Positions 23,202-28,726 of a DNA stretch of 64,000 nt are shown one piece after another. The notes under the pieces were generated by a model, which saw nothing but the letters and a program-made list of their open reading frames with translations, did not search any database and was not told the DNA's origin. Numbering within the stretch: position 1 is the stretch's first letter; each line of letters opens with the position of its first letter. This DNA is from Hyphomicrobiales bacterium (lineage in GTDB: Bacteria; Pseudomonadota; Alphaproteobacteria; Rhizobiales; Methyloligellaceae). A program made the translations under genes and the position numbers. The stretch is from assembly GCA_028280515.1 (NCBI GenBank), contig JANQLP010000126.1:62001-126000 (forward strand), read 5' to 3'.

Positions 23202-23429
23202 ATGAACCGTCTTGAAAAGAAATTCCCGCTCAAGGGCGAGGCGACCCTGAATTACGGGGATGGCGAATACCAGATTGTCTCGGCCGGTGACTTCGTTCGA
23301 TGCGCGGTGACCGGGCAGCCGATCCCGCTCGACGAACTGCGCTATTGGAGCGTCGACCTGCAGGAAGCCTATGCCAGCGCGGAGACGTCGCTGGAGCGGT
23401 ATCGCGAGGTCATGGCGCGGCGTTCCTGA
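23202..23429 (+). CDS. DUF2093 domain protein
   Basis: A 75-residue protein with the DUF2093 core (LNYGDGEYQIVSAGDFVRCAVTG...LRYWSVDLQEAY). Function unknown; the family is confined mainly to alphaproteobacteria and is usually placed next to xseA or lpxK, as here. One Cys (RCAVTG) lies in the conserved block, which looks like half of a zinc ribbon. Its 3' end overlaps the convergent lpxK gene by 20 bp. ATG 23202 directly follows an in-frame GTG. Confidence 0.85.
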   Translation: MNRLEKKFPLKGEATLNYGDGEYQIVSAGDFVRCAVTGQPIPLDELRYWSVDLQEAYASAETSLERYREVMARRS

Positions 23430-24423
23430 CGACGCGCGCAAGCAGGCGCCGAACTTTCCCCCGATCTCTGAATTGCAATGCGACGGGCAGGGTGCGCGTC
23501 TTGGCTTTCAGAAGTCCGAGACTGCCCGCGCCCTGAATGCGCACGAAATCTTTCTCCGTCGTCACGAGCTGCGCCTCCTTTTGCCGAGCGAGCTCAAGCA
23601 GATGATCCGCATCCGACGCCGTGAAGATATGGTGATCGGGATACGCGCCGCGATGGATGAGATTGCAATTCATGGTCTCAAGGGTTGCGAAGAACTTCTC
23701 CGGGTGCGCGATACCGGCATAGGCGATGACCGGCTTCTCGTGTAGCCAGCCGGTATCCTCGCTCGGGGAAATCGAGGCGTCCAGCGCGACGATGCCTTCG
23801 GCCCGTGCCGATTGAACCAGCGGTTCGGCGGCGTCCCCGGTTCCGGAAAAAACCAGAGCTTGGGCCTTTTTGAGCTGGAAGGGCAGTCCGGCCCTTAACG
23901 GACCCGCTGGAACCACCCGGCCGTTGCCGAGGCCGACACCGCGGTCGACGACAACGAACGAAAAGTCCTTCGCCACCGACGGGTTCTGAAATCCGTCATC
24001 CATGATGATGACGTCGGCGTTCTGCTGCGCGGCAAGCGCTGCCCCGGCCGTGCGGTCGGCGGAGACGATCACCGGCGCCACACGGGCAAGCAGGAGCGGC
24101 TCATCGCCCACCCGGCGTGCGTCGTCCCGGCCCGCGTCAACGAGATGGGGTCCCTTTTCCGAGCCGCCATAGCCGCGCGTGAGAAAGACGGGTTGCACGC
24201 CGTCCTTGAGGAGCAGCCGGGCTATGGCGATTGCGGTGGGGGTCTTGCCGGCACCGCCGACGGTGAAGTTGCCGATACAGATGACGGGGAGTGACGGTCT
24301 GGAAGGGCGCGTGAACAACCAGCGCAAACGGGTTGCCGCGTCCCAGACGACCGCGGCGGGGGCGAGCAGATGCGGCTGCAGACCTTTTTTCTCATACCAC
24401 CAGGACGGAGCCTTAGGAGGCAC
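23410..24423 (-). CDS. lpxK: Tetraacyldisaccharide 4'-kinase LpxK
   Basis: 337 residues with a membrane-associating N-terminal helix and the P-loop GNFTVGGAGKTPTA (residues 51-64), then an IIMDDGFQNPS segment typical of LpxK. It phosphorylates lipid A disaccharide at the 4' position on the inner-membrane cytoplasmic face. Its start overlaps the end of the DUF374-WaaA gene by 11 bp, so both are probably translated in a coupled way as part of one LPS operon. Confidence 0.95.
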   Translation of the reverse strand: MPPKAPSWWYEKKGLQPHLLAPAAVVWDAATRLRWLFTRPSRPSLPVICIGNFTVGGAGKTPTAIAIARLLLKDGVQPVFLTRGYGGSEKGPHLVDAGRDDARRVGDEPLLLARVAPVIVSADRTAGAALAAQQNADVIIMDDGFQNPSVAKDFSFVVVDRGVGLGNGRVVPAGPLRAGLPFQLKKAQALVFSGTGDAAEPLVQSARAEGIVALDASISPSEDTGWLHEKPVIAYAGIAHPEKFFATLETMNCNLIHRGAYPDHHIFTASDADHLLELARQKEAQLVTTEKDFVRIQGAGSLGLLKAKTRTLPVALQFRDRGKVRRLLARVVRNAAP

Positions 24424-26440
24424 GTTGCCGTTCCTTCTTTGGTCTCTGCGCGACGGGCAGGAACGTGAGAATTGCCCTGGTTGTCGTCTCGAGCGCGCCG
24501 CGCATACCGTCTACCGCCTCTCGGGCCCGGGCGTTGAATTCCCGCCGCGCGGTCGGGTCTTCAAGAAGAGATTTCACCTTCCCGACAAGGTCCTTTTCAT
24601 CTGCCACCTCGATGCACGCATCTGCCGCCTGCAGTGTGTCATAGGCGTCCTCGAAATTGTGGACTTTCGGGCCACTCAGAACCACGACCTCGTGCATGAC
24701 CGCTTCGATCGGGTTCTGACCGCCGTGCGGCACCAGGGATCCGCCGATGAAGGCGACCGGCGCTACGGAGTAGAAAAGGCCAAGTTCGCCGATCGTGTCG
24801 CCGACATAGATGTCGTGCGTTGCATCGGGCGCCGGGTCGAACGTGCGGCACGCGGCGGTCAGGCCCCGTGCCTTGAGCATGGCGCAGATCTCCTCGCCGC
24901 GATCGGGATGGCGGGGCACGATGATGGTGAGCAGGTCCGGGAAATCCGCCTTGAGCGCAATATGGGCATCGGCAACGATTTCGTCCTCGCCGACATGTGT
25001 GCTCGCGGCAAGAAAAACCGGCCGCTTGCCGATGGCTTTCCGGAGCTTCTTCAAATCTGCCTTCTCAACAGGTGGCGGTGGCGCGTCGATCTTCAGATTG
25101 CCGCCGACAATGACATTGCGCGCGCCCAGCCGCTCGAACGACACCGCATAGCGGTCGCTCTGCGCGAGCACGAGGTCGAGGCTGGAAAACAGGGGATTGG
25201 CGGTACGCATCTGTTTGCGCCAACGTCGGAAGGACGTTGGCGACATGCGGCCGTTCACGAGCACAAGCGGTATCCTGCGAATGCGGGCCTCTCGGATCAT
25301 GTTCGGCCAGATCTCCGATTCGGTCAGGATCACCGCGGTCGGCTGCCAGTGGTCGAAGAAGCGCGTCATGAATTCGGGCGCATCGAGCGGCACATATTGG
25401 TGAATGACGCCATCCGGCAAGCGCTTGCGGGCGAGCCGCGCCGATGTCACCGTTCCGGTGGTCAGAAGGATGCGCAGCGTCGGCTGCTCCTTCACCAGAC
25501 GTTCGATGAGGTGGAACACCGCCGTCGCTTCGCCCACGCTCGCGGCGTGAAACCAAAGGATGTCCCCTGCAGGCCGCCCGACGCTCGCATATCCCATGCG
25601 TTCGGTAATATGCGTCTTCTCCTCCTTGCCCTGCCGTTCGCGGTAGCGCAGGAGCAATGATGCGGCGGGTTGAAAGGCCCGGGTCAGAACTGCGTATGCC
25701 TTGAGCTTCAAGCCGAAGGCGGGCGGTTCACCCTTAGCCGATATGCCGCGCTCCTTCGTGCCGGCGCATTGATAGGCGCGTGCGGTGGTCTCGTTCAGTT
25801 CATCCTCGAGAAGCTTGCGAGCCGCCTGCAGTTCCTCGTCGCTGGCGTGACGGGGAACGCGCACCTGGTTGCCACCCGCCATCACCATCTTCGAGAAGGG
25901 CAGATTGACTGTGAAGCCACTCCATGTGTTCAGCTTCCAATAATGCCTGGTCACGACCGCGCAGGGCAGGATCGGGCGTCCCGAGAGCTTGGCCAGGGTG
26001 ACGATGCCGAGGCCCGCCTTTCGGGCCGGTCCAGGAGGTATGTCCGCCGTCAGCGCCACCGTCGTATCGCTTCGCAGCGCCTTCATGCATTCACGCAAGG
26101 CGGCGAAGCCACCTTTGTCCTTCCCCTTGCGCCCTGCACCCGCGCCACGAATGGTCGTCATCCCGAAGGGTGTGATCGAGGCGTGGACAATGTCCCCGTC
26201 AATGTGCTTCGCCACCATGATGGCAACCTTGATGTCATCGCGTGGCCGGATAAAAGGCAGCAACAGCCCCTGGCCGTGCCACATCGCAATGATCAGCGGT
26301 GTGTCGGGAAGGTTGTTCTCAATGAAGTTCGGCGGGTCGTCACTGACGTGCGAGGTCCGCTTCACGAAACGGATATAGGCCGCCATCGATCTGCCGATGG
26401 TGTTGATGACTGCTCTGGACTTCAAGAGGCGTGAAACCAT
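24413..26440 (-). CDS. waaA: DUF374 acyltransferase-WaaA (Kdo transferase) fusion protein
   Basis: One open frame of 675 codons. Residues 1 to about 227 match DUF374 proteins, relatives of lysophospholipid/lipid A acyltransferases (IAMWHGQGLLLPFI, His55; ADIPPGPARKAGLG). Residues about 245-675 are a complete WaaA/KdtA: FHAASVGEA (Glu304, the expected base), LTESEIWPN, and GGSLVPHGGQNPIEA. WaaA adds Kdo to lipid A precursor on the cytoplasmic face. The join (about 228-244) has no in-frame Met: the last before it is Met187 and the next is Met282, inside WaaA. These are normally two genes; a TTG start for WaaA at codon 244 is possible. Flanked by msbA and lpxK. Confidence 0.85.
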   Translation of the reverse strand: MVSRLLKSRAVINTIGRSMAAYIRFVKRTSHVSDDPPNFIENNLPDTPLIIAMWHGQGLLLPFIRPRDDIKVAIMVAKHIDGDIVHASITPFGMTTIRGAGAGRKGKDKGGFAALRECMKALRSDTTVALTADIPPGPARKAGLGIVTLAKLSGRPILPCAVVTRHYWKLNTWSGFTVNLPFSKMVMAGGNQVRVPRHASDEELQAARKLLEDELNETTARAYQCAGTKERGISAKGEPPAFGLKLKAYAVLTRAFQPAASLLLRYRERQGKEEKTHITERMGYASVGRPAGDILWFHAASVGEATAVFHLIERLVKEQPTLRILLTTGTVTSARLARKRLPDGVIHQYVPLDAPEFMTRFFDHWQPTAVILTESEIWPNMIREARIRRIPLVLVNGRMSPTSFRRWRKQMRTANPLFSSLDLVLAQSDRYAVSFERLGARNVIVGGNLKIDAPPPPVEKADLKKLRKAIGKRPVFLAASTHVGEDEIVADAHIALKADFPDLLTIIVPRHPDRGEEICAMLKARGLTAACRTFDPAPDATHDIYVGDTIGELGLFYSVAPVAFIGGSLVPHGGQNPIEAVMHEVVVLSGPKVHNFEDAYDTLQAADACIEVADEKDLVGKVKSLLEDPTARREFNARAREAVDGMRGALETTTRAILTFLPVAQRPKKERQRAS

Positions 26441-26461: not shown

Positions 26462-28345
26462 TCACTTGACCGAGACGGGATCAGATTTGCGCCGCGTCCT
26501 GCGCTTCTTCTTGGCTGGCGCGCCCGCGATGGCAGCCGGCTCATCTGGAATGATGCCGAGCTGCGCGCTGTTAAGGCGCGCATAAAGGCCACCGGCGGCC
26601 ATCAGTTCCTCGTGGCGGCCCATTTCCGCGATTCTGCCCTTGTCGAGGACGCAAATCAGATCGGCTTCGATCACGGTTGAGAGGCGGTGCGCGATCATCA
26701 GCACGGTACGGCCGCGCATCAGCTTGTCGAGGGCGTCCTGCACTTTTGCCTCCGCTTCGGAATCCAGCGAGCTGGTCGGCTCGTCGAGCAGCAGGATCGG
26801 CGCGTCCTTGAACACGGCGCGGGCAATGGCGATGCGCTGTTTCTCGCCACCGGAGAGAATGTTGCCGGCTTCGCCGGCGCGCGTTTCGTATCCCTCCGGA
26901 AGTCGGGTGATGAAGTTGTGCGCATCCGCTGCCTTGGCCGCGGCGACAACGGCGTCGTGATTGCCCTCGGAACCATAGGTGATGTTCTGGCTGATGCTCT
27001 CGTCGAACAATACCGGGTCCTGTGTCACCAGCGCGACGGAGTCCCGCAAGCTCGCGGTCGTTACCTTGGAGATGTCCTGTCCGTCGACCAGGACGCGTCC
27101 CTTCTGCGGGTCGAAGAAGCGCAGCGCGAGGTTGATCATGGTGCTTTTTCCCGCGCCGGACGGTCCGACCAGAGCGACCGTCTTCCCGGCCGGCACCTTG
27201 AGCGAAACATTCTTCAGAACCGTTGCGCCGTCCTCGTAGGAGAAGGACACGTTCTCAAAGACGATCTCTCCCTTCTTGAGGTCCAGTGGCTTGGCGTCGG
27301 GCGTATCGACCAGTTCGCGCTTGCGGTCGATGATGCCGAACACGCGGCTTGCCGCCGCGACGCCCTCCTGGAGGGAGGTCTGCAGTGTCGCCACGCTTTT
27401 CATCGGCTGGTAGATCAGCATCGCGGCGGTCATGAAGCCCATGAAATGGCCAAGCGTGACCGCGCCCGTCACGCCTTTGACGCCTGCGACATAAATGAGA
27501 AGGGCGAGGCCGATGCCGACCAGCACCTCAACAAACGGTGCCGAGGCAGCCCGGGCCCGGGCCCCGCGCATCGTGAATTCCAGTGCCCGGTTGATGGTGC
27601 GCGTCGCGCGCTTGATTTCACGCTTTTCCTGACCGTAGGCATGGACGATGGGCAGGCCGGAGATGGTTTGCGAGATCAATGCGCTGAGATCGCCGGTTTC
27701 CTGCATCGTCTTGGTCGTCGACTTGCGCATTTTGCGGCGCTGGCGCCCGAGCAGATAGACCGCAAGCGGCATGGTGATCAGAACGACACCGGAAAACCTC
27801 AGATCCATGTAGAGCATCACGCCGACAAGCACGATGACCTTGATGAGGTTCTGGCAGAGCGCCACCATCGCCCGGCTCGCGGTCTGCCGGATAAGATTGG
27901 CGTCGTACAGAAATCCCGAGATGAGGCGCCCGGAATGCACCGAGTTGATCCAGCTCAGATCGGCCTCGGTGATTTTCGAGAACATCTGAATGCGCAAATC
28001 TGCGATGAAACGATTGCCGAGATAGCCGACCGCGACGGTTGAGACATATTCGGTGATCGCCTTTGCGACGCTGACGACCAGAATGAAGATCATGATCGGG
28101 TAGATCATCTCTTCTTTCTTGTCGACGAACACATGGTCCGCCGTCATCTGGATGATGAACGGAATGGCGCCGGCGGTCGCGGCCGCAAAGGCGAGCGTCA
28201 GGCCGGAGAGAATGACGAGGCCGATCCTCGGGCGAAAATGCTCGTGCCAAATCCGTTCGATCACTTCGCGGGTCGTGTACTCGACCTGAAGCTCATCGGC
28301 ATTTCGCTTTACGGAGGCCGCGTCGGTGAACAGTGCGTCTTTCAC
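26462..28345 (-). CDS. msbA: MsbA-like ABC transporter (lipid A flippase), fused permease-ATPase
   Basis: A 627-residue half transporter: about six transmembrane helices (residues 45-335) followed by an ATPase with Walker A GPSGAGKST (near 400), signature LSGGEKQRIAIARA, and Walker B ILLLDEPTSSLD. Homodimers flip lipid A-core to the periplasmic leaflet. The assignment to lipid A rests on the neighbouring waaA and lpxK genes. The tail is Lys/Arg-rich. A 21-bp gap separates it from the DUF374-WaaA gene downstream. Confidence 0.88.
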   Translation of the reverse strand: MKDALFTDAASVKRNADELQVEYTTREVIERIWHEHFRPRIGLVILSGLTLAFAAATAGAIPFIIQMTADHVFVDKKEEMIYPIMIFILVVSVAKAITEYVSTVAVGYLGNRFIADLRIQMFSKITEADLSWINSVHSGRLISGFLYDANLIRQTASRAMVALCQNLIKVIVLVGVMLYMDLRFSGVVLITMPLAVYLLGRQRRKMRKSTTKTMQETGDLSALISQTISGLPIVHAYGQEKREIKRATRTINRALEFTMRGARARAASAPFVEVLVGIGLALLIYVAGVKGVTGAVTLGHFMGFMTAAMLIYQPMKSVATLQTSLQEGVAAASRVFGIIDRKRELVDTPDAKPLDLKKGEIVFENVSFSYEDGATVLKNVSLKVPAGKTVALVGPSGAGKSTMINLALRFFDPQKGRVLVDGQDISKVTTASLRDSVALVTQDPVLFDESISQNITYGSEGNHDAVVAAAKAADAHNFITRLPEGYETRAGEAGNILSGGEKQRIAIARAVFKDAPILLLDEPTSSLDSEAEAKVQDALDKLMRGRTVLMIAHRLSTVIEADLICVLDKGRIAEMGRHEELMAAGGLYARLNSAQLGIIPDEPAAIAGAPAKKKRRTRRKSDPVSVK

Positions 28346-28468: not shown

Positions 28469-28726
28469 TCAGGCATCGCCGTTGTCCGTCTCCGGGTCGA
28501 GCAGGCGGTGCATGTGGACGATGAAATAGCGCGTGTGGGCATTGTCGACCGATCTCTGGGACGCGCCTTTCCAGGCATCGTACGCGGTCGCGTAATTCGG
28601 GAAAATGCCAACGATATCAAGTCCGTCGAGATCGCTGAACTCGATGCCCTCAAGGTCTGTCAGCTCGCCACCAAACACCAGATGAAGCAGTTGCTTCTCA
28701 GGTGTCTCATCGCCTTTCTCAGCCAT
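28469..28726 (-). CDS. DUF4170 protein
   Basis: 85 residues. The HLVFGGELTDLEGIEF and DIVGIFPNYATAYDAWKGASQRSVDNAHTRYFIVHMHRLLDP segments are diagnostic of DUF4170, a small alphaproteobacterial family of unknown function. It lies between the CysQ-type phosphatase and msbA on the same strand, within the lipid A run, which suggests a link to envelope synthesis. It is probably soluble: there is no signal peptide or membrane helix. Confidence 0.85.
   Translation of the reverse strand: MAEKGDETPEKQLLHLVFGGELTDLEGIEFSDLDGLDIVGIFPNYATAYDAWKGASQRSVDNAHTRYFIVHMHRLLDPETDNGDA

Follow-up and report, generated by a model that had tools for sequence, protein, structure and literature searches.

The locus analysed here raises the question of whether two lipid A genes have become a single enzyme, or whether the joined frame is an artefact or yields two products. 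The step catalysed by WaaA is central to LPS assembly and usually essential. The reading that we favour, with moderate confidence, is that one polypeptide combines an LpxJ-type acyltransferase with WaaA in a bifunctional lipid A enzyme, with a probable shift in acyl specificity.

The fused frame and its genomic context

Translation of the window (the whole 64,000-nucleotide stretch of DNA that was analysed) gave a frame of 675 codons plus a stop at 24413-26440 on the minus strand, with an ATG start and zero internal stops. The frame is comprised of a DUF374/LpxJ-type acyltransferase (residues 1 to ~229; 25754-26440), a 14-residue linker (residues 230-243; 25712-25753) and a full WaaA (KdtA) domain (residues ~244-662; 24455-25711). 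Pfam placed DUF374 (PF04028) at residues 69-139 (E 5.6e-15; 55.1 bits against a curated cut-off of 26.8) and Glycos_transf_N at residues 277-452 (E 3.5e-60; 203 bits against a cut-off of 23.9). The KdtA/WaaA models of NCBIfam covered residues 245-661 (3e-141). In the NCBIfam equivalog scoring, the top model reached 471 bits against a cut-off of 617, and five WaaA subgroup models each spanned most of the WaaA part with a score below their own cut-off.

The fold of the WaaA half matched 4bfc (Z 29.0, rmsd 1.8 over 191) and 2xci (Z 24.8, rmsd 5.5 over 353). The A. aeolicus residues E98, K162, R212, N273 and E276 correspond to E374, K450, R510, N576 and E579 by motif within the phmmer alignment with 2xci, and A. 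aeolicus E31 corresponds to E280 by motif only. These residues, which serve CMP binding and the transfer of Kdo, are invariant or nearly so. The translation and the Pfam and NCBIfam matches agree with the first-pass annotation, which had described a whole DUF374 domain followed by a whole WaaA in a single frame, and the WaaA catalytic positions, which it had listed as a catalytic Glu and nucleotide motifs, are intact. Both halves can be assigned to the assembly of lipid A. The half resembles the known WaaA/KdtA enzymes of A. aeolicus (2xci/2xcu) and A. baumannii (4bfc) in its GT-B fold, its PRH, GNxK, GGxNPxE and ESExWP motifs and its invariant residues; however, it differs from them in carrying a 229-residue N-terminal acyltransferase ahead of the membrane-associating helices.

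For the whole chain, the AlphaFold model had a pLDDT of 89.5 and a pTM of 0.81; its confidence dropped at the linker, near residues 230-240. The linker is variable and often Pro-rich in relatives. The N-terminal segment of WaaA was modelled as two short helices (244-255 and 257-269), and the 19-residue Kyte-Doolittle average stayed below 1.6 in this region in all 174 fused or split loci. The segment fits a monotopic membrane contact, which would remove the topological difficulty of placing a cytoplasmic domain ahead of WaaA. The fusion, which puts a cytoplasmic acyltransferase in front of the N-terminal helices of WaaA, also favours a position of these helices along the membrane over one across it.

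The gene lies in an LPS cluster, all on the minus strand, in the order inositol-phosphatase family gene, DUF4170 gene (28469-28726), MsbA-type ABC transporter gene (26462-28345; Pfam ABC_membrane and ABC_tran), fused gene and lpxK (lipid A 4'-kinase; 23410-24423; Pfam LpxK, 2.4e-88). The downstream lpxK overlaps the fused gene by 11 bases. DUF4170-like frames were also noted near waaA in related loci, e.g., L127 and L147. A search of the source genome (5.4 Mb, 98% complete) identified a single full-length match to the fused protein, a single WaaA and a single DUF374 domain.

Distribution and single origin of the fusion

Approximately 240 loci from the order and the class were compared. Open-frame lengths can read through stops, as in G104, and the fused or split state was therefore judged by translation. 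The joined frame was present in all eight genomes of the genus, with the seven others at 65-81% identity, and recurred across the order at 40-54% identity, including in single-contig genomes. The search of other genomes for single-gene architectures, which the first-pass annotation had suggested, identified 74 distinct uninterrupted fused loci from 15 family codes of the order, each of them translated. By table count, about 65 of the 397 sampled genomes of the order are fused, with ambiguous stops translated where loci were taken. The named fused records are metagenome-assembled genomes, most of them labelled Hyphomicrobiaceae or Hyphomicrobiales.

Two separate genes were present in the named loci of Bosea, Methylobacterium, Pseudolabrys, Rhodoplanes, Kaistia, Breoghania and Methylocystis. 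The frames of the two genes usually differ in the split loci, and the DUF374 stop mostly lies 13-35 bases ahead of the codon equivalent to residue 247 of WaaA. The expectation that the two are separate adjacent genes in other alphaproteobacteria thus holds for most of the class, but not for the fused clade of the order. Two further samples, of 190 and 120 genomes, showed no independent DUF374-WaaA fusion in the rest of the class or phylum. In loci L207-L215, which belong to the class but not to this order and come mostly from small genomes, DUF374 and waaA share a frame with one stop between them, and the loss of that stop would fuse the two.

An assembly or sequencing artefact, in which an indel deleted the stop between two genes, had been raised by the first-pass annotation. 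The only point in its favour is that the assembly is a draft of 253 contigs, whereas the 74 loci are joined in independent assemblies, including the single-contig genomes G009, G015, G017, G165 and G320. We consider an artefact to be extremely improbable, and the sequencing-error reading was rejected, as the frame is joined across a whole clade in which it arose once.

The origin of the fusion was examined in a WaaA-only tree of 182 rows, which included 75 fused rows, 6 without an adjacent DUF374 and 1 that was frame-broken. These rows formed one group with an SH-aLRT value of 83, or of 93 when three f7 rows were removed. One change between the fused and split states suffices on this tree, and the fusion therefore had one origin, in a branch of the order, with moderate support for the whole fused clade. 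The DUF374 tree was compatible in outline with the WaaA tree: the 60 fused rows formed one clade (92) and all the rows of the order grouped together (91). The position of the f7 trio in the DUF374 tree was not resolved, but was near the fused clade.

DUF374 was subsequently lost from the locus in six genomes (G010, G011, G012, G277, G293 and G346). A genome-wide search detected no DUF374 anywhere in G011, G012, G277 and G293, and the sole DUF374 of G010 is distant and of the WD type. In the loci of G010, G011 and G012 (L128, L129 and L130, respectively), WaaA directly follows the MsbA-type gene and DUF374 is absent. G346 represents a natural un-fusion, with WaaA standing alone (L125) and a free DUF374 frame of 261 codons on another contig (L248, G346:C8:304912-305559), where it adjoins a cyclopropane-fatty-acid-synthase-like frame. 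As DUF374 was lost in four genomes and relocated in G346, the coupling of the two domains cannot be indispensable, a point that the first-pass annotation did not consider. Frame changes were also observed at the linker in G019 (L131) and inside DUF374 in G018 (L132), in a genus that is otherwise fused; these may be errors or decay.

One chain or two products

The first-pass annotation was correct that no in-frame Met lies between residues 187 and 282; however, GTG at codon 193 and TTG at codons 244 and 262 are in-frame candidate starts between the domains in the window. It had proposed TTG 244 (25709-25711) as the start of a second product. No Shine-Dalgarno sequence is present 5-10 bases from this codon, and L002 and L003, the closest relatives, lack a start codon at its position. 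Among the 74 fused loci, 26 have no ATG, GTG or TTG from -20 to +5 of residue 247, and L040, L194, L195 and L198 have no usable start within 32 codons on either side of the WaaA start region. Comparison of the three closest genomes showed silent differences at 11-16 of the 25 codons of the linker region and residue changes at only 2-3; the region is conserved as protein among these genomes.

These results bear on whether WaaA is made separately, from an internal start or by proteolytic release, so that the fusion would be without functional meaning. The TTG codons at 244 and 262 would allow this, as would the ATG, GTG or TTG found near the junction in many relatives, and in the sister lineages, as in the genomes lacking DUF374, WaaA functions from a gene of its own. 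Against it, TTG 244 is neither conserved nor suitably preceded, four relatives are startless across the junction, and the frame has stayed open over 15 family codes. Two products are thus considered unlikely, and the proposed TTG 244 start was not borne out. Since WaaA is single-copy in the source genome and the internal start is unconserved, one fused chain is the likely product, and the likeliest source of the Kdo transferase. The chain could still be cleaved after translation.

The acyltransferase half and its proposed role

The AlphaFold model of residues 1-237 (pLDDT 92) matched GPAT, PatA, PlsC and LpxM at Z 10.6-12.6, with values of 12.6 for GPAT (1k30; rmsd 3.9 over 208), 12.0 for PatA, 11.8 for PlsC and 10.8 for LpxM; unrelated folds mostly scored Z 6.8 and below. 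The models indicate that the DUF374 half has an LPLAT fold. A DUF374 alignment profile gave only chance matches to the PDB sequences.

Mutagenesis has shown that the DUF374 protein LpxJ of R. typhi needs W60, H61, D86, D132, W172 and D173, and an Asp-to-Ala change at D173 abolished its activity (PMC6148475). By motif and spacing, and not by direct alignment, these positions correspond to W54, H55, D81, D133, W173 and Ser174. The WH motif with the catalytic His, the H-x-D motif and the block III Asp are present in the fused protein, and W173 is kept, but the Asp of the WD motif is absent. W54, H55 and W173 do not vary across the 173 DUF374 rows of the alignment; Trp54-His55 (26276-26281) are part of the WHG motif, which would supply the catalytic base. 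D81 and D133 are nearly invariant in the fused proteins, and Asp133 (26042-26044), the proposed partner of His55, is Asp in 70 and Glu in 4 of 74.

Position 174 (25919-25921) is Ser in 72 of the 74 fused loci, with Asn in L012 and Cys in L171. The same position is Asp in all 132 unfused loci checked, 99/99 that are split within the order and 33/33 from the class outside the order. The first-pass annotation had not noted this replacement. The columns that switch between the fused and split forms number four in DUF374 (58, 100, 136 and 174) and zero in WaaA. For pairs with a WaaA identity of 45-50%, DUF374 identity was 44.6% within the fused group, 44.9% within the split group and 39.1% between the groups; for a WaaA identity of 50-55%, the values were 48.0%, 48.8% and 39.8%, respectively. 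The lower identity between the groups at equal WaaA identity indicates that DUF374 changed more on the fusion branch. Horizontal replacement of DUF374 as the source of this extra divergence is unneeded, as the fused and split forms of the order group together. The Ser swap at the base of the fused clade and the divergence confined to DUF374 suggest that acceptor or donor specificity changed near the time of the fusion. A fusion with one origin, matched in the same clade by the exchange of an essential active-site residue, represents a natural experiment.

As the WD-motif Asp is replaced, the acyl step cannot simply be assumed to follow standard LpxJ chemistry, and the effect of the Asp-to-Ala change in R. 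typhi means that the fused enzyme need not be active in acyl transfer. The DUF374 half could accordingly be a catalytically dead tether or membrane-docking domain, leaving WaaA as the sole activity, and the loss of the whole domain from some clade members would be in keeping with this. However, the Trp and His of the WHG motif do not vary in the fused proteins and the two other Asp residues hardly do, and the free copy in G346 retains the WHG motif and the Ser form (WSKM) though it is not tied to WaaA. Furthermore, amino acid-changing codons in the three closest genomes make up 6-13% of the DUF374 core against 19-23% of WaaA. As it changes less than WaaA among near relatives, the DUF374 half is under strong purifying selection and is no relic, and we regard a dead domain as rather doubtful.

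In the favoured bifunctional reading, the LpxJ-type half, the short linker and WaaA would lie at the cytoplasmic face of the inner membrane. The WaaA half would move Kdo from CMP-Kdo onto a lipid IVA-type precursor made by LpxK, and the DUF374 half would acylate this precursor from acyl-ACP in an LpxJ-like manner, with no need for Kdo. Both steps would then share a single location between LpxK and the MsbA-type flippase of the neighbouring gene, with an acyl specificity that shifted around the time of the fusion. In LpxJ enzymes the 3' primary chain is the site of acylation, and the members tested are Kdo-independent (PMC6148475, PMC6286764); WaaA accepts substrates with 3-6 acyl chains. Chemically, one chain could thus carry out the two steps in either order. 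A more specific form, which we put forward tentatively, is a neofunctionalised LpxJ whose Ser form acylates another site or uses another donor, with the product passed to or from the WaaA half to give a distinct lipid A.

The fused form shares with LpxJ of Helicobacter, Campylobacter, Wolinella and Rickettsia the DUF374 family, the WHG and H-x-D motifs, the block III Asp and the LPLAT fold, and an LpxJ-type DUF374 gene adjoins waaA in alphaproteobacteria outside the fused clade. It differs from these late acyltransferases in being joined to WaaA, in the change of the WD Asp to Ser, and in that its substrate is only predicted. In the literature found, alphaproteobacterial DUF374 function was tested in Rickettsia only. 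An lpxC/fabZ fused gene occurs in Bacteroidetes, Chlorobi and Verrucomicrobia (PMC3087551); it likewise joins two adjacent lipid A pathway genes, but other enzymes and lineages are involved, and here late acylation is joined with Kdo transfer. Lipid A gene fusions are thus known in kind. The literature search, of partial coverage, found no description of a DUF374-WaaA fusion, which is apparently undescribed, though domain databases may already list the architecture. The fusion ties DUF374 physically to Kdo transfer and predicts an altered acylation pattern, and the fused, relocated and DUF374-less relatives permit a direct comparison of lipid A.

Two LpxL-family acyltransferase genes were noted in the source genome (L123, G000:C232, and L124, G000:C75), and the other secondary acylations are therefore probably covered by these genes, away from the fused gene. 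One of the two lies downstream of an alcohol dehydrogenase gene, an arrangement which we take to be that of lpxXL clusters.
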